Origin: a virus
Direction: 5' to 3' (one strand)
IMG/VR virus record: IMGVR_UViG_3300008110_003766
Span: 1 to 20,264 of that record
DNA: 20,264 nt
Under the pieces are notes generated by a model, which was given only the letters and a program-made list of their open reading frames with translations, was not told the origin of the DNA and made no database searches. Below, piece by piece: positions 1 to 18,219 of the stretch (position 1 is the stretch's first letter; every line of letters starts with the position of its first letter). The position numbers and the translations under genes were made by a program.

Positions 1-344
1 TGGTCGCCTGCGCCAAAGTCATCTGTGCCTAGTGCAATATCTGCACTTTGTGGATGCAGCTCGTTATAGATTTTTAGATGCTGCCAGTGGAAGCCTTCTT
101 GTTCGTAACCAATATCCTTAACTGTGTTACGCACAATGTCTGCAATCACACTCTTGTCAATTTCTTTGGTGCTCTTATACTCACCAGCTAGTGTTACCAT
201 GTTAGTGGTGACTAGTGTTTCTACTGCGGCACGGTGAGCTGGATTCTTATCCAGAATATATGTAGCAACAGCATCACTGATTAAATCAGCAACCTTGTCA
301 GCATGTCCTTCACTTACGCTTTCACTTGTAAAAAGATACCCCAT
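1..344 (-). CDS. metK: S-adenosylmethionine synthetase (MetK), N-terminal part; runs off the left edge
   Basis: Reading leftward from an ATG at 344, the frame is open to the window edge and gives about 114 residues of methionine adenosyltransferase. This enzyme makes S-adenosylmethionine from methionine and ATP in the cytoplasm. Near the N-terminus is [16 protein letters not shown], the family signature around the ATP/methionine site. It is followed by [10 protein letters not shown] (bacterial enzymes typically read CETxVxTGMV) and, at the window edge, GAGDQ of the GAGDQG motif. Cellular enzymes have HPDK where this has HADK, and TGM where this has TNM, so the protein is a divergent phage version. 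The start shares one base with the apt stop (TAATG), which suggests translational coupling. Completeness and activity cannot be judged because the C-terminal two thirds lie outside the window. Confidence 0.93.
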
Positions 345-901
345 TATTCATCCTTGTTATATGTAATGACGCTAAATGTTTTAACGCCCTGTTCTGTTAG
401 TTTAACTGTGCCGCCTAGAAATATTAGATCAATAACTGAAGCATAACATACTTCGATCGGATGCACATTAAACTTCTTAAGCAACTCAACAATAGCTAAT
501 GCTGTTCCGCCTGTGGCGTTCACATCGTCAACAATTAATACATTGCTCACTTCACCAAGCGGAGCATTTTCTTTCATATGCAGACTCGTGTTAGCATACT
601 CATACTCAAAGTCATATCCAATTGTGGGCGGTGGCAGCTTGCCTGGCTTGCGAACCAGGTGTAACGGGACACCCAAATTAAGTGCTACTGGGCCGCCCCA
701 AATAAACCCCCTAGCATCGGCTGCTACTACATCAGTGATATAATTAGCCCTAGCAAACGCTGTAATAGCGTCTACAGTGGCTTTAAATGCAGCAGGCTTA
801 TACAGCAAGCTAGTAACATCTTTGTACTGTACACCCGCTACAGGAAAGTCTGGAATAGGGGTAATTTCATGCTTGAGGTTATAAGGATCTGTATCTTGCA
901 T
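344..901 (-). CDS. apt: Adenine phosphoribosyltransferase (type I PRTase)
   Basis: This 185-aa protein should convert adenine plus PRPP to AMP and pyrophosphate (purine salvage, cytoplasm). Residues 11-30 match the Apt N-terminus (ITPIPDFP...GVQYKDVT). [14 protein letters not shown] at about 61-74 is the substrate-side motif, [10 protein letters not shown] at 81-90 is typical of bacterial Apt, and [13 protein letters not shown] at 121-133 is the PRPP-binding motif with two adjacent aspartates. Length is close to the usual 170-185 aa. The start at 901 shares one base with the stop of the upstream 166-aa gene (TAATG), and its own stop overlaps metK in the same way, so the three genes are probably coupled. 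The pairing with metK suggests adenine recycling into the ATP and SAM pools. Family assignment is firm; exact base specificity is inferred. Confidence 0.92.
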
Positions 902-3187: not shown

Positions 3188-3220
3188 AAAAACTACCCCC
3201 CGAGTTGCCTCGGGGGGTAG
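3188..3220 (-). terminator. Strong intrinsic terminator after the AAA+ ATPase gene
   Basis: A perfect 12-bp GC-rich stem (CTACCCCCCGAG and its complement, 3193-3204 and 3209-3220) with a TTGC loop is followed on the minus strand by five T residues (3192-3188). It lies about 30 bases after the stop of the ATPase gene and before the uvsW promoter, so it insulates the uvsW operon from upstream transcription. Confidence 0.92.
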
Positions 3221-3247
3221 TGCCTTTACGCTGTGGGAGAATAACGC

Positions 3248-4550: not shown

Positions 4551-4584
4551 AAAAAAAGCCTGCTAAATCAATAACTTAGCAGGC
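4551..4584 (-). terminator. Intrinsic terminator after the 48-aa gene
   Basis: A 9-bp stem, GCCTGCTAA (4558-4566) paired with TTAGCAGGC (4576-4584), with a 9-base loop, is followed on the minus strand by seven T residues (4557-4551). It begins about ten bases after the stop of the 48-aa gene. Confidence 0.88.
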
Positions 4585-4593
4585 CTAATAAAA

Positions 4594-5876: not shown

Positions 5877-6972
5877 CTGCATATTCCTCCGTAGTTGGCT
5901 CAAAATCAGCGGGATCAGCGTCTGCTACAGTTGTAGTATTAGCGACTGGATTTTGACCCCACTCGTCAATAATTACCTGCAACTTATTGTTGGTCCAACC
6001 TTTTCTGAACTCCTTGATGATTTCACCAGTAACAGGTGAAGTATACGCAAGTCGATTGCCTTCCTTAACAAGAATACCTTTTGCTTCAAACATGTCCAAT
6101 AGGCCACTATAAGGATTCATACCTGAGTCATAAGGAATCTTAATTTGAACGCTTTCAAACGGCTTGCTATAGCGAGTTTTCATTACCTTACAGGCACTAC
6201 GAATACCACGCACTTCGCTAATCTTATTACCGTCATCATCTTCCTTGAGCTTGAGCTTACGCATAGCAACTACAATTGAACTAGCGTAAATAAAGCCCTG
6301 TCCACCACTGATCTTGTCATCTGGATCAAACATATCCTGACTTGCATAAGTGTGGTTTGTTGCAACTAGTCCAATTGGATAAGGTGCAATCATGTTTACA
6401 GTATTACGAACCAAGGCTGTAAGAGCCTTTGGCTTTCTACCCATATCACCCTTCATGTCACCCTTCTGGAACTGATCAACATCAGTTGGAGTAAGCAACA
6501 TGCCGAGACTGTCAATTACGAACAGTAATTTGGGCATTTCTTCATACTTCAGTGAGCCATAATTAACTTTGTAGTCTTTCATAAAGTCTGAGATGGCTTT
6601 GGCCACATCGTCAATCATGCTAACTGAAATACGCAACAGCTTTTCGGAACTAGTATCAACGTCTAGTGCCTTGAGCCATTCTTCATCAAGTGCGTTCTCG
6701 GAGTCAAAAAGAACAACCTGACAGCCCATCTTTTGAGCGTTCTTCACAATATTGCCGGAGCAAATAAAGCTCTTACCGGAGCCTGATTCACCTGCAAACA
6801 CACATACCTTACCTAGCGGAATACCCTTGTTAAAGTCTCCGCTGATAAGATAGTTTAGAGTATGGTTACCTGTGCTGATCCAATCAACTGGATCATGGAA
6901 ACCAGCACTGATACCCGTAATGTTTTTAGTTAGACCAGTACGAAACTTGGTCAGATCAAAAGGTTTCTGCAT
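5866..6972 (-). CDS. uvsX: UvsX RecA-like recombinase
   Basis: This 368-aa protein (T4 UvsX about 391 aa) forms filaments on single-stranded DNA and drives strand exchange for recombination and recombination-dependent replication. GESGSGKS at 61-68 is the Walker A motif, and LLFVIDSLGM at about 149-158 is Walker B. FDSENALDEEW near 95-105 and the GQGFIYASS loop-2 region near 244-252 match UvsX-type recombinases. The C-terminus is acidic (ADADPADFEPTTEEYADES), as in many RecA-like proteins where it tunes DNA binding. It follows gp32 by 13 bases, with AGGAG before the ATG at 6972, so the two are co-transcribed. Confidence 0.96.
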   Translation of the reverse strand: MQKPFDLTKFRTGLTKNITGISAGFHDPVDWISTGNHTLNYLISGDFNKGIPLGKVCVFAGESGSGKSFICSGNIVKNAQKMGCQVVLFDSENALDEEWLKALDVDTSSEKLLRISVSMIDDVAKAISDFMKDYKVNYGSLKYEEMPKLLFVIDSLGMLLTPTDVDQFQKGDMKGDMGRKPKALTALVRNTVNMIAPYPIGLVATNHTYASQDMFDPDDKISGGQGFIYASSIVVAMRKLKLKEDDDGNKISEVRGIRSACKVMKTRYSKPFESVQIKIPYDSGMNPYSGLLDMFEAKGILVKEGNRLAYTSPVTGEIIKEFRKGWTNNKLQVIIDEWGQNPVANTTTVADADPADFEPTTEEYADES

Positions 6973-8068: not shown

Positions 8069-8097
8069 ATTATATTGCCATGTTGTAGGAAAGTCAA
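8069..8097 (-). promoter_or_regulatory. Near-consensus sigma70 promoter of the gp32-uvsX-uvsY operon
   Basis: TTGACT (8092-8097) and TATAAT (8069-8074) are 17 bases apart on the minus strand. This is the best match to the bacterial consensus in the window and predicts early expression by host RNA polymerase. Confidence 0.88.
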
Positions 8098-8108
8098 TGA
8101 CTTTCTAC
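8085..8108. repeat. Inverted repeat covering the -35 box of the gp32 promoter
   Basis: AAAGTCA (8090-8096) and TGACTTT (8098-8104) are exact complements around one base, extended by GTAG and CTAC on the outside with a single-base bulge. The repeat includes the -35 hexamer, so it could be an operator for a dimeric regulator. With only one base between arms and no T-run after it, it is not a terminator. Confidence 0.55.
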
Positions 8109-8113
8109 AATTT

Positions 8114-8120
8114 TATTTAT
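8114..8120 (-). promoter_or_regulatory. T4-type late promoter element upstream of gp32
   Basis: ATAAATA on the minus strand lies about 110 bases before the gp32 ATG, upstream of the sigma70-type promoter. It would allow continued late transcription of the gp32 operon. Confidence 0.55.
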
Positions 8121-8179
8121 GCCAAACACACTAAATGCCCGACATTATTAGTTATCTTTTTAAAAACTATAAATGAAGT

Positions 8180-8734: not shown

Positions 8735-8767
8735 AAAAAGTCCCGCATAATGTTAATTATGCAGGAC
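8735..8767 (-). terminator. Intrinsic terminator ending at the start codon of the oxygenase gene
   Basis: In minus-strand RNA, GTCCTGCATAA (8767-8757) pairs with TTATGCGGGAC (8750-8740) as an 11-bp stem with one U-G wobble, followed by five U residues (8739-8735) and then the ATG at 8734. The wobble becomes a C-A mismatch on the other strand, so the element is oriented for minus-strand transcription. It terminates the 420-aa gene. The only Shine-Dalgarno-like bases for the next gene (GGGA) lie inside the stem. Confidence 0.85.
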
Positions 8768-8792
8768 CAAGAAAAGATACACCACTTACTGA

Positions 8793-10055
8793 TTAAATTA
8801 CGAATGTTTCTAAATATTTTTCGTATTGTTCCGATTCTGTTATGCCCGGTATTGTTTTAGTTTTTGCTTCGGATGCACTGAGTAGGCAGCTCTTAACTGT
8901 ACCATACTCAAAATGATTTAGTGTGCCGCCTGCGTTAAGTTTCTTACTAATGCCATGAAGATGATTGCTTAGTATTGGATTTTGAGCAGCGTATCCCATT
9001 TGTGCCACTTGATGCCCTAGTCGTGCATGTGGTGATTCAAAATCTATCACATCACTTTCGCGCAATGAGTCTTTAAGTCCTTCAAAAGTTTCTTCCTGAA
9101 TTGCATTTTTGATTCTACTCTCGTATGATTGTTGTCTTGCCATTGCTCGTTTGATACCGCCCATAGCATCAGCTACGCGGTTATCAAAATGTGTTTCTAC
9201 AAACTTTTGTTCAATTTCAATTGTATCTTCTTCAATAATACTTAGATTCTGATAGTCTTCTAAACTTTCTACAGTATTTGCGTATGTCTTAATACCACTT
9301 AGTTTTTCAAAAGTATTGCGAATGCTGTTAATTTGCTCTAGTGCTAGAGTTACATATTCTTCATTTGATTCGTTTACTAGATTTGCCTTGCGAACATAAC
9401 GCACAAATTCTTGAAGCTTGCGATATTCTGCTGCTAGTTGAGTAATTGATTCGCCTACGCTATCATGCATTTCGCCGCCTGCATACAAGTGACGTGCCAT
9501 TGCACGAGCAGCCTTTAAACTGTTCTCCTGCATCTTGAAACGCTCTTCGCCGCGCTGAATATAAATGCTGTGAATGTTGCGACTGCGTGAGCCGCGAACT
9601 TCTTCATTAACAGCCTTCTTATGACGAACAACAATTTTAATGTTGTCTAGGGGTTGATAACTGGTTTTTGTTGATCCTGTCATCACACCAAATCCTTCCA
9701 TAACGTCTGCCATGTCTTTCTCCGAATTTTGTGCAATATTAACTGCTTCACCTTTTGGCTCGATCTTCTTGTCAAATATCTTGTAATCAAAAGTAAATGG
9801 GGGATTACTTCTTGCAAGCTTCTGTAACATTTTTCTTATAGGATGCTCGCTCAAATCCTCGCTGGTCGCTAGACTAATAAGATCATAATTAAGATCTAAC
9901 CGTACTAAAAGATTAGGATCAGACACAGAGAATCTAGTTGCTTCCTGTGGATTTACAACCAACTTTCCTTGCTTATCATAATTTTTTACAGCGTACCCAA
10001 AACCCTTTAAAATATTAAAGATTTTTTCCGCTAGTACATTAGTATCAATTGCCAT
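8793..10055 (-). CDS. Uncharacterised phage protein, 420 aa, between terL and the oxygenase
   Basis: I do not assign a function. The N-terminal 100 residues look like a folded domain (FNILKGFGYAVKNYD, then a beta-rich part through LDLNYDLISLAT). Residues about 120-190 are basic (VVRHKKAVNEEVRGSRSRNI). From about 190 to 345 the protein is strongly helical and charged, with coiled-coil potential. The C-terminal part is mixed. No signal peptide, membrane segment or nucleotide-binding motif is visible. It directly follows the terminase large subunit and has its own late element, so a late role in the virion, head or packaging is likely but unproven. The ATG at 10055 has GAGG upstream, inside an inverted-repeat loop, and a terminator follows the gene. 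Confidence 0.82.
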   Translation of the reverse strand: MAIDTNVLAEKIFNILKGFGYAVKNYDKQGKLVVNPQEATRFSVSDPNLLVRLDLNYDLISLATSEDLSEHPIRKMLQKLARSNPPFTFDYKIFDKKIEPKGEAVNIAQNSEKDMADVMEGFGVMTGSTKTSYQPLDNIKIVVRHKKAVNEEVRGSRSRNIHSIYIQRGEERFKMQENSLKAARAMARHLYAGGEMHDSVGESITQLAAEYRKLQEFVRYVRKANLVNESNEEYVTLALEQINSIRNTFEKLSGIKTYANTVESLEDYQNLSIIEEDTIEIEQKFVETHFDNRVADAMGGIKRAMARQQSYESRIKNAIQEETFEGLKDSLRESDVIDFESPHARLGHQVAQMGYAAQNPILSNHLHGISKKLNAGGTLNHFEYGTVKSCLLSASEAKTKTIPGITESEQYEKYLETFVI

Positions 10056-10080
10056 AATAGTATTATCCTCTAATACTATT
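10056..10080 (-). promoter_or_regulatory. Perfect 10-bp RNA hairpin with the Shine-Dalgarno in its loop
   Basis: On the minus strand AATAGTATTA (10080-10071) and TAATACTATT (10065-10056) are exact complements around a five-base loop, GAGGA, that is the ribosome binding site. The 3' arm touches the ATG at 10055. The late element at 10077-10084 overlaps the 5' arm, so a late transcript should begin near the loop and lack that arm. Confidence 0.7.
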
Positions 10081-10082
10081 TA

Positions 10083-10084
<2 letters not shown>
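10077..10084 (-). promoter_or_regulatory. T4-type late promoter element (GATAAATA)
   Basis: GATAAATA on the minus strand overlaps the terL stop codon and the 5' arm of the hairpin at 10056-10080. The predicted start near 10071 gives a leader of about 15 bases that begins at the Shine-Dalgarno. Confidence 0.7.
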
Positions 10085-11678
<1,594 letters not shown>

Positions 11679-13386: not shown

Positions 13387-14079
13387 TTAGTTCCTTCTAG
13401 CACTCTGACTAATCACATCAACTTCTTTGTTCTCAATTCCCTTGCCCATATTGGCAGTATTATGAATTGTATCCCAAAGTGGCTTTAGATCCTCTCCCAT
13501 CAATTCATCCTTGTTTGGATAATTGCGGAAATAATCTGCGCCCTTTTCTGCTTTAATCTTTGCTAGCTCATCTAAAAACTTTTTGTTAAATTCTTCACCA
13601 AAGAAAGGACCGTCTTTGTAGAGGTCTGGATTCTGCATTCCATAATGTTCTTGATCTTCGTTAGCAAGTACACTTTCCTCTTGCTTTGGTGCGCGGTCTT
13701 TATTAAATTCTGTACGCTCTTCAGCATTTTCACTTTCTAATCTACGAGGATCTTTTACACCGTAAACAAGAACACGCTCATGTGGTAAGCCTAAATTAAC
13801 TGCTAACCATACTTCTAAAATTCTTTCATTAACAGGATACTTGAGAACTACATCTGTTGCACAAACTTCTGAAACAAACTTAACACCTTTAGCACGAACA
13901 AATTCCATTGGATTTTCTTCGATTGGTCTGCGCTTCCAAGCAGCAGCACTTACAAGGCCGTATTTCTGTAGTGCATTTTCAAGTTGAGTCATTTGCTCGG
14001 CGCCGCAGTTAGCAGCGAACTTAACTCTATATGCGTATTCTTTTTTGAAGCTTTCAGCGATGAATTCTTTTAGTTGCAT
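13387..14079 (-). CDS. Uncharacterised late phage protein, 230 aa
   Basis: The protein starts MQLKEFIAESFKKEYAYRVK. It has an N-terminal alpha/beta domain through about residue 115, in which YRVKFAANCGAEQMTQLENAL looks like a strand-helix unit and RILEVWLAVNLGLPHERVLVYG another. A charged, probably extended C-terminal half follows (ENAEERTEFNKDRAPKQEES onward). No catalytic motif, signal peptide or membrane segment is visible. It is expressed from its own late element (14102-14109) after a terminator. AGGAG is present before the ATG at 14079 but enclosed in an 8-bp inverted repeat. It leads the group of genes that ends with the terminase large subunit, so a head or packaging role is plausible but not shown. 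Confidence 0.8.
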   Translation of the reverse strand: MQLKEFIAESFKKEYAYRVKFAANCGAEQMTQLENALQKYGLVSAAAWKRRPIEENPMEFVRAKGVKFVSEVCATDVVLKYPVNERILEVWLAVNLGLPHERVLVYGVKDPRRLESENAEERTEFNKDRAPKQEESVLANEDQEHYGMQNPDLYKDGPFFGEEFNKKFLDELAKIKAEKGADYFRNYPNKDELMGEDLKPLWDTIHNTANMGKGIENKEVDVISQSARRN

Positions 14080-14104
14080 AGTTATGAACTCCTGTTATAA
14101 CTAT
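14078..14104 (-). promoter_or_regulatory. 8-bp RNA hairpin with the Shine-Dalgarno in its loop
   Basis: On the minus strand ATAGTTAT (14104-14097) and ATAACTAT (14085-14078) are exact complements. The 11-base loop contains AGGAG, and the 3' arm includes the first two bases of the ATG. The late element overlaps the 5' arm, as at 10056-10084. Confidence 0.68.
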
Positions 14105-14109
14105 TTATC
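14102..14109 (-). promoter_or_regulatory. T4-type late promoter element (GATAAATA)
   Basis: GATAAATA on the minus strand is placed so that transcription should start near 14096, just past the 5' arm of the hairpin at 14078-14104, giving a leader of about 16 bases. Confidence 0.72.
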
Positions 14110-14118
14110 ATCTTAGTC

Positions 14119-14146
14119 AAAAAGGAAGGGGCCTAAGCCCCTTCCC
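14119..14146 (-). terminator. Intrinsic terminator after the 114-aa gene
   Basis: GGAAGGGGC (14124-14132) and GCCCCTTCC (14137-14145) form a perfect 9-bp stem with a CTAA loop, followed on the minus strand by five T residues (14123-14119). It separates the 114-aa gene from the next late promoter. Confidence 0.9.
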
Positions 14147-14536: not shown

Positions 14537-14582
14537 TTTGTTTCTCCTAAAATATATTACTCGACTAAGTCAAGCTATGCAC

Positions 14583-15053
14583 TTATTTATCTTTTTGGTT
14601 GATAATTTTAAGTAACTCGTTACGATCAAATTGACTGCTGGATTCTTCTGGGGACACGCCGTTTGCTTTATCTAATCTTGCTTTTTTAAGCATTAGGTCA
14701 ACTTGTTTTAGTTTTCGTGTTACTTTACTGTCTTTGGCTTCTAATGCAATTTTTAGCATCTGAGCAGCATTATTAAAAACAGGGCCTGCTGCCATATCTG
14801 TCATGTTCATACCCAATGCCATAAGCTGAGTATAACTGTCTATGGCTTGCCGAGCAATGTCGTCCATTTCGCCATCATGCGCTTCCATACCACGCACTTC
14901 ACTGAGTGCCATATTAATTTTTTCACTGATAGTAATAGCATCTTCAACAGTTTGAATAGTTGCTATAGGATTTTCAGTTTGGGCGGGCTGTGCAGCACTC
15001 AATGCTACATCTAATGGCGGTAAATTAAATTCTTCTTCCAATTTCTTAGTCAT
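14583..15053 (-). CDS. 16: Terminase small subunit (gp16-like)
   Basis: This 156-aa protein is close to T4 gp16 in length (164 aa) and in layout: a variable N-terminus, then a helical core. SYTQLMALGMNMTDMAAGPV and NNAAQMLKIALEAKDSKVTR, with RKLKQVDLMLKKARLDKA after them, form the helical hairpin of T4-superfamily small terminases. The C-terminus is short and charged. gp16 forms rings, recognises DNA to be packaged, and stimulates the gp17 ATPase. It follows gp4 by eight bases without a clear Shine-Dalgarno, so coupling is likely. It is separated from gp17 by three genes, unlike T4 where they adjoin. Confidence 0.85.
   Translation of the reverse strand: MTKKLEEEFNLPPLDVALSAAQPAQTENPIATIQTVEDAITISEKINMALSEVRGMEAHDGEMDDIARQAIDSYTQLMALGMNMTDMAAGPVFNNAAQMLKIALEAKDSKVTRKLKQVDLMLKKARLDKANGVSPEESSSQFDRNELLKIINQKDK
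14584..14591 (-). promoter_or_regulatory. T4-type late promoter element of the 114-aa gene
   Basis: GATAAATA on the minus strand lies inside the last codons of gp16 and about 50 bases before the ATG at 14536, which gives a normal-length leader with a strong Shine-Dalgarno. Confidence 0.7.
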
Positions 15054-15061
15054 AACACTAC

Positions 15062-15532
15062 TTATTGCTTTTTCTTCTTAGCTATACGGCTTCTAGGATT
15101 TCTTTTCTTTTTAGTTTGAAAGATTTGATCTTCATTAAGAACTTTAAATCTTATTCCTTTTCTAGCACACCATTCTTGTGCAGCGGCCCATTTGGCAGCG
15201 TTTAACATAGCCTGCGCTTGCTGTTGTTTACTTTTAGCAGCTTCTAGAGTAGTCTGAGATGATGGTTTAATTTCAATCAGTTCAACATGCTCGCGACCAT
15301 CCTTATCCATATACTGAATCATAAAGTCAGGAATGTAATTTGCATGTTTGCCAGTAAATGGATTACGATAGGGAATAGCGATACTTTCATTGGCCCATTT
15401 TACAATGTTGGGATGCATATCACACATACGCATGAAAGTTAATTCCCAACTGCTGCGAAAATAGGGTGCTTTGCTTCCTACATACTTTGCAGGGTTCTGC
15501 ACAGTATAAACACCTTGTGCAAACGCCGACAT
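15062..15532 (-). CDS. 4: Head completion protein gp4-like, TnsA/PD-(D/E)xK nuclease-like fold
   Basis: From the ATG at 15532 the protein has 156 residues (T4 gp4 is 150). A longer frame from 15583 would overlap the upstream gene by 50 bases and add unconserved residues, so I reject it. YFRSSWELTFMRMCD at 24-38, W-x-x-E near 46-50, IPDFMI at 67-72 and IEIKP at 86-90 give the E...D...ExK arrangement of TnsA-like nucleases, with E30, D69, E87 and K89. T4 gp4 acts at the head after packaging so that tails can join. The C-terminus is very basic (KKKRNPRSRIAKKKKQ), which suggests DNA contact. The start lies two bases from the previous stop, so coupling is likely. Confidence 0.87.
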   Translation of the reverse strand: MSAFAQGVYTVQNPAKYVGSKAPYFRSSWELTFMRMCDMHPNIVKWANESIAIPYRNPFTGKHANYIPDFMIQYMDKDGREHVELIEIKPSSQTTLEAAKSKQQQAQAMLNAAKWAAAQEWCARKGIRFKVLNEDQIFQTKKKRNPRSRIAKKKKQ

Positions 15533-18142: not shown

Positions 18143-18150
18143 TATTTATC
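18143..18150 (-). promoter_or_regulatory. T4-type late promoter element of the tail tube gene
   Basis: GATAAATA on the minus strand, located between the sheath terminator and gene 19. The leader it predicts contains a small AAAACTT/AAGTTTT hairpin that does not include the ribosome site. Confidence 0.75.
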
Positions 18151-18188: not shown

Positions 18189-18219
18189 AAAAGAAAAGGG
18201 GCATTTCTGCCCCTTTTCT
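18189..18219 (-). terminator. Intrinsic terminator after the tail sheath gene
   Basis: AGAAAAGGGGCA (18192-18203) and TGCCCCTTTTCT (18208-18219) form a perfect 12-bp stem with a TTTC loop, and the minus-strand RNA ends in a U-rich run. It lies about 25 bases past the gene 18 stop and splits sheath from tube transcription. Confidence 0.88.

Follow-up and report, generated by a model that had tools for sequence, protein, structure and literature searches.

Why should the start codon of a phage virion gene adjoin a hairpin whose 5′ arm is at the same time part of a late promoter? The question arises in the window, i.e. the whole stretch of 20,264 nt analysed here, a 20-kb virus fragment, on whose minus strand the sequence TTT TGA TAA ATA GTATTA GAGGA TAATACTATT ATG leads into the gene for a 420-aa virion protein (Table 1). 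A sequence-only reading had described a 10-bp inverted repeat with a Shine-Dalgarno (SD) loop, in contact with the ATG and overlapped by a late element, and had interpreted it as a time-dependent translational lock, to be checked by looking for paired changes in relatives, whose recurrence at two further genes of the window could make it a general strategy of the phage. The anatomy is confirmed exactly: the arms AATAGTATTA and TAATACTATT are fully complementary over 10 bp, and GATAAATA overlaps the 5′ arm. A perfect arm of at least 10 was obtained in 7 of 20,000 dinucleotide shuffles of the 35-nt leader, and 0.33 perfect 10-bp repeats of such a kind are expected by chance across the whole window. 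Folding both transcript forms, we found a stem of -8.2 kcal/mol at 37 °C in read-through RNA, with both arms paired and the SD itself unpaired within the loop, while the stem cannot form in RNA begun at 10070-10072. If T4 late-promoter spacing is assumed, RNA from 10071 lacks 9 of the 10 bases of the 5′ arm. The late promoter upstream of the 420-aa gene can also be regarded as real, as it lies directly 5′ of the gene in every homolog with enough upstream sequence, and a gp55-like sigma factor is found in a relative.

The explanation that we consider likely is that gp55-type late promoters produce leaderless mRNAs across a group of related phages, the hairpin of the window being a clade-specific addition. 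At this locus a T4-type (gp55-class) late promoter (10084-10077), welded to the start of the virion gene, would drive late RNA from 10071 with a 16-nt leader, AGAGGAUAAUACUAUU, in which the SD is accessible; the +1 position is a prediction borrowed from T4 spacing and base preferences. The conserved device would allow two arrangements: a spacing of exactly 5 nt from NATAAATA to ATG, with which the message opens on the A of AUG and is leaderless, or a leader of ~11 nt or more that carries an SD. Within the window the TerL and 156-aa genes appear to be leaderless and the 420-aa gene leadered. The leader in the window's clade can also base-pair with the promoter spacer, so that a stem may cover the start region in RNA read through from upstream; this stem would probably lower independent initiation unless ribosomes translating terL open it.

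Table 1. Positions of promoter, hairpin, gene and terminator features in the window
Feature	Position	Strand	Basis or remark
Late promoter element GATAAATA, T4-type, -13 to -6	10077..10084	-	Motif match; present in all homologs with upstream sequence
Promoter spacer GTATT, -5 to -1	10072..10076	-	Spacing taken from T4 (PMC2988020)
Predicted late transcription start A (+1), initiator-like base	10071	-	Predicted; A/G at the same offset in leadered promoters of relatives (see text)
Inverted repeat, 5′ arm AATAGTATTA	10071..10080	-	Sequence, shuffles, folding
Loop = SD GAGGA, 5 nt	10066..10070	-	Sequence, folding
Inverted repeat, 3′ arm TAATACTATT, adjoins ATG	10056..10065	-	Sequence, shuffles, folding
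420-aa virion protein gene, phrog_13484 (E 9e-29)	8793..10055	-	ATG 10055-10053
TerL (terminase large subunit)	10083..11663	-	Stop 10085-10083
terL stop codon	10085-10083	-	Ends 2 nt before the stem
Near-consensus late element GCTAAATA, exactly 5 nt before TerL ATG, no SD, predicted leaderless	11669..11676	-	
GATAAATA, late promoter of 230-aa gene (13387-14079)	14102..14109	-	Motif
Second promoter-arm/SD-loop hairpin, 230-aa gene, ATAGTTATAACAGGAGTTCATAACTATG, -7.1 kcal/mol	14078..14104	-	Shuffles, folding, relatives
GATAAATA, late promoter of 114-aa gene, long SD leader, hairpin at leader 5′ end	14584..14591	-	Motif
Near-consensus late element AATAAGTA, exactly 5 nt before 156-aa gene ATG (15053), no SD, predicted leaderless	15059..15066	-	
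GATAAATA, late promoter of tail tube gene	18143..18150	-	Motif, gene annotation
Strong intrinsic terminator, 5′ of late promoter 14109	14123-14146	-	
Strong intrinsic terminator, 5′ of late promoter 18150	18192-18219		
Strong intrinsic terminators	8739-8768, 3192-3221, 4556-4586	-	

Conservation of the hairpin

The 420-aa protein is encoded at 61 IMG/VR loci. The clade of the window has 21 nt between motif and ATG and the stem of -8.2 kcal/mol, and the L004 clade has 18 nt and a stem of -7.4 kcal/mol. For L017-L020 we observed a change in the 3′ arm alone (TAATACT to TAAACT, 5′ arm unchanged), by which the stem drops to -2.1 kcal/mol; the expectation that relatives keep the stem through paired changes thus fails for this gene. 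Other leadered relatives reach 0 to -4 kcal/mol, mostly without involvement of the promoter arm; L037, L039 and L050 form no stem with that arm, and L027-L029 no comparable one. The strong stem is hence present in two sister clades, broken by uncompensated changes in the next clade and absent deeper in the tree. The promoter-to-ATG spacing follows the same protein tree, in which 16 of 42 rows have exactly 5 nt from motif to ATG (e.g. GATAAATAGTTGT directly followed by ATG), so that the A of the ATG is the predicted +1. A single change separates the leaderless from the leadered state (support for the leadered clade 98; the tree is unrooted and gives no direction of change), most of the deep branches carry the distance-5 state, and the window belongs to a clade in which the 420-aa gene has a leader.

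Using swapped arms and shifted windows for 50 leadered gene families, we found that pairing between the promoter arm and its own leader exceeds that of arms swapped in from other genes only slightly (p = 0.04, or 0.09 once the two window genes are left out), and does not exceed that of the 13 nt further upstream. Promoter-arm pairing is therefore not convincingly above chance, which argues against the hairpin as a general strategy; a stronger signal in an earlier pairing test of 44 sites was discounted because homologous copies dominated it. The hairpin exists, though only in a few close relatives, and is best read as a clade-specific addition to the promoter-ATG device.

Late promoters at a fixed distance from the start codon

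T4 TATAAATA begins at -13 (PMC2988020), so that the element covers -13 to -6 and +1 follows 5 nt later. We measured the spacing between NATAAATA and the ATG of open reading frames (ORFs) of at least 50 aa in 558 kb from eight large contigs of relatives, which are partial metagenome contigs with 208 distinct motifs. An ORF ATG lies at distance 5 for 47 of the 208 motifs and at distance 6 for 7, every other distance from 0 to 17 accounts for 0-2, and leadered starts resume at distance 18-60. The reversed-pattern control gave 3 compared with 51, and control 7-mers showed no peak. As related contigs are not independent, we also counted protein families: the distance-5 class covers 28 that blastp does not join. 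An SD within 20 nt of the start is present at 1 of the 47 distance-5 sites versus 63 of 84 leadered ones, and all 47 distance-5 starts are ATG, compared with 62 ATG, 8 GTG and 1 TTG among 71 SD-led starts (p = 0.011). At the same +1 offset the leadered promoters carry A/G in 75 of 84 cases, preceded by a pyrimidine in 70 of 84, as would be expected for a start site, and homologous N-termini agree between leaderless and leadered genes. In an IMG/VR scan with GATAAATAGTNNTATG, whose contigs had been picked by the pattern itself, other NATAAATA motifs of the same contigs peak at distance 5 among the matches listed (at least 37, other distances at most 7). The wider group keeps its late promoter at a fixed distance from the start codon. 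We infer 5′ ends and leaderless translation from sequence, spacing statistics and phylogeny, by which many viruses of this group would probably make late messages without a leader.

The same geometry is seen in the cultured Pelagibacter phage HTVC008M, where 9 of 45 motifs are distance-5 sites and 9/9 of these coincide with annotated CDS starts. In that genome the nine sites are those at 6280, 7562, 16007, 18916, 19456, 31132, 49760, 75559 and 142360. PA5oct shows it weakly (5 of 145); three of its sites were checked, two of which are annotated starts, one of them belonging to a structural protein whose record notes detection by mass spectrometry. GAP32 has only 2 distance-5 matches in 359 kb, with 0 in the reversed-pattern control. 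The distance-5 class is absent from the motifs of T4 (0 of 65) and Syn9 (0 of 38), so the late machinery could differ in detail from that of T4. A pattern general to all T4-like and jumbo phages was rejected, as no clear excess was found in T4, S-PM2, Syn9, P-SSM2, Phosso, Vibrio 2.275.O, GAP32 and phiM12. A gp55-like late sigma is present in PA5oct, Phosso and G001 (for the latter a match to phrog_12791, E 8e-98); G001 is the relative whose homolog of the 420-aa protein is 95% identical, the window itself being limited to its 20 kb. A relative also encodes a homolog of ribosomal protein bS21 (L102, G002:C1:6415-6570; PF01165, E 2e-13). We considered phage bS21 as a helper for non-SD translation, but it was found in 1 of 13 partial contigs, which speaks against a general link.

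Other late promoters and hairpins in the window

The window contains five NATAAATA motifs on the gene strand and none on the opposite strand. The distance-5 sites of the TerL and 156-aa genes (2 observed versus 0.05 expected in the window) each have one mismatch to ATAAATA; in relatives we found exact NATAAATA-N5-ATG at terL in 12 and at the 156-aa gene in 13. The proposed recurrence of the hairpin at two further genes of the window is upheld for the 230-aa gene, but in the folded leaders at 14591 and 18150 the promoter arm does not close a loop around the SD. The late leaders of the 114-aa gene have a hairpin of their own (14559-14575, minus strand, in the window), which begins 2-3 nt past the predicted +1 in nearly all relatives with differing sequence (stems AGCC/GGCU, AGUUGU/ACAACU and GCUUGAC/GUCGAGU), the MAFFT alignment being too poor for a count of covariation. 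This hairpin is likely a message-stabilising 5′ hairpin, and its position suits the predicted 5′ end. In the leader of the tail tube gene (5′ of 18087, minus strand) a mini-hairpin, GTTC-GTAGGA-GAAC, presents the SD in its loop, and it recurs in late leaders of relatives. Since this mini-hairpin is part of the late transcript, placing an SD in a loop does not necessarily imply repression.

Alternative explanations for the hairpin

A two-state lock as in T4 gene e, limited to the clade of the window, would leave read-through RNA folded and silent while late RNA without the 5′ arm is translated, a reading that we regard as possible though rather doubtful. Anatomy and energy fit it (-8.2 kcal/mol, with the stem absent from RNA begun at 10071), a perfect stem is unlikely by chance, a precedent is known (PMC3014915), and the 230-aa gene is similarly arranged, with the pair variants A-U, G.U and G-C in different lineages (L002, L072 and L087) and a differently sequenced stem in L028. 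However, in sister clades the stem of the 420-aa gene is lost or broken without compensation, there is no covariation at this gene (its 5′ arm hardly varies because it is promoter), there is no convincing excess of such pairing across other leadered genes, the SD is unpaired in the loop, and ribosomes on terL, whose stop ends 2 nt before the stem, should open it. Nor is early read-through RNA evident: the genes 5′ of TerL on the minus strand look late (virion genes), a terminator at 14146-14123 should end transcripts from further upstream, and the overall number of sigma-70-like sites in the window is that expected by chance. Any transcript reaching the 420-aa gene by read-through would therefore itself be late, which weakens the early/late switch of the sequence-only reading; what stands of that lock is its anatomy and folding, and what lacks support is its conservation and its generality.

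The repeat might instead be a by-product of how the leader arose. AATAGTATT in the promoter is nearly palindromic, and the leader, GATAATACTATTATG, resembles the promoter-ATG junction GATAAATAGTATTA as if copied from it by slippage or duplication; together these features would yield an inverted repeat without selection for RNA structure. Such an origin seems to us conceivable rather than probable. It agrees with the close match of GATAAATAGTATTA and GATAA-TACTATTA (one gap and one base apart), with the position of the second copy, likewise 5 nt before the ATG, with the free decay of the stem in relatives and with the distance-5 state on most deep branches. Against it, the spacer base in the second copy is C, as exact complementarity requires and a direct copy would not give, a stem of -7.4 kcal/mol is maintained throughout the L004 clade, and the 230-aa gene has a second hairpin. 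Translational coupling, in which the stem blocks free ribosomes and is opened by those finishing terL, would make synthesis of the 420-aa protein from read-through RNA depend on translation of terL. A ribosome at termination occupies about the length of the 5′ arm, the terL stop (10083) is 2 nt from the stem, and in many relatives upstream stop codons overlap or adjoin the promoter (by eye). We nevertheless think coupling unlikely, as the L004 clade has other sequence directly 5′ of the promoter while the stem remains, and as a late promoter that makes its own RNA leaves coupling unneeded. A point against the leaderless reading is that coupling to a closely preceding gene could allow some distance-5 ATGs to be used when the RNA is read through. 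Under the explanation that we prefer, leaderless late promoters with a clade-specific hairpin, the unifying idea would be that the leaderless and the hairpin form both favour RNA begun at the gene's own promoter.

Relation to known systems

Phage late genes are usually thought to rely on strong SD leaders. The cI mRNA of phage lambda is leaderless. Leaderless mRNAs are also known from mycobacteria (PMC4633059); the sites described here resemble both in an AUG predicted at the 5′ end, in the lack of an SD and in the use of ATG only, and differ in being tied to a phage late sigma promoter, in extending across T4-like structural genes and in being predicted from sequence. Leaderless translation reportedly escapes inhibition by kasugamycin (PMC5230787). 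A passage in the AR9 paper, citing a ribosome-binding study, calls phage transcripts 'often leaderless'; for leaderless late RNA in T4-like phages we found no report in the open-access literature. With the gp55 late promoters of T4 they share the 8-bp NATAAATA, a start about one helical turn downstream and, in a close relative, a gp55-like sigma (PMC2988020), whereas G is here the commonest first base and about a quarter of the sites put the ATG exactly at +1, compared with 0 of 65 in T4. The translational lock is known from the T4 genes e, soc, 49 and I-TevI, where, as here, the 5′ arm of a start-site hairpin lies partly within a T4-type late promoter and is missing from late RNA (PMC3014915). 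Unlike these, the present case concerns a virion gene among late genes, with no early read-through RNA evident, the SD in the loop and a stem confined to two sister clades. For the jumbo phages CBB and GAP32, an ATAAATA motif was described before structural genes and predicted to be late (PMC5259590), as in our relatives, in which, unlike GAP32, the distance-5 arrangement is frequent.

If a late promoter fused to the start codon is indeed used in T4-like phages of aquatic bacteria, their late messages would be leaderless, the annotation of gene starts and late promoters would change, and phage transcription would be linked directly to the choice of translation route, which is testable in cultured phages. 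In pelagimyophages the search for late promoters was reported to have been unsuccessful (PMC7029224); the fused promoter-ATG form is seen here in a phage of Pelagibacter, HTVC008M. A more far-reaching version, which we hold to be improbable, is a start-site-gated programme in a large group of environmental T4-like phages: about a quarter of the gp55 late promoters would fire at the A of AUG, structural genes would be translated only from 5′-terminal AUGs along a leaderless route, and the same genes on read-through RNA would be silent for want of an SD or shut by a hairpin, so that promoter choice, possibly together with phage changes to the ribosome, would gate late translation.

Gene neighbourhood

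The minus strand of the window carries genes for the tail tube, a sheath-like protein (by eye), further virion proteins, TerL, the 420-aa virion protein, a 2OG oxygenase, a gp32-like single-strand binding protein (SSB) and others. GAP32 shares this gene order, its annotation showing a matching terL / virion protein / SSB / UvsX-like neighbourhood, and the order terL / protein / SSB is also annotated in Vibrio phage 2.275.O. Upstream of the gp32-like SSB gene (8069-8121, minus strand) we found CATAAATA, a hairpin and a near-perfect sigma-70 promoter, TTGACT-17-TATAAT; this gene is probably under early and late control. At the end of the window (3-901, minus strand) there are metabolic genes which, judged by eye only, resemble those for S-adenosylmethionine synthetase and a phosphoribosyltransferase.
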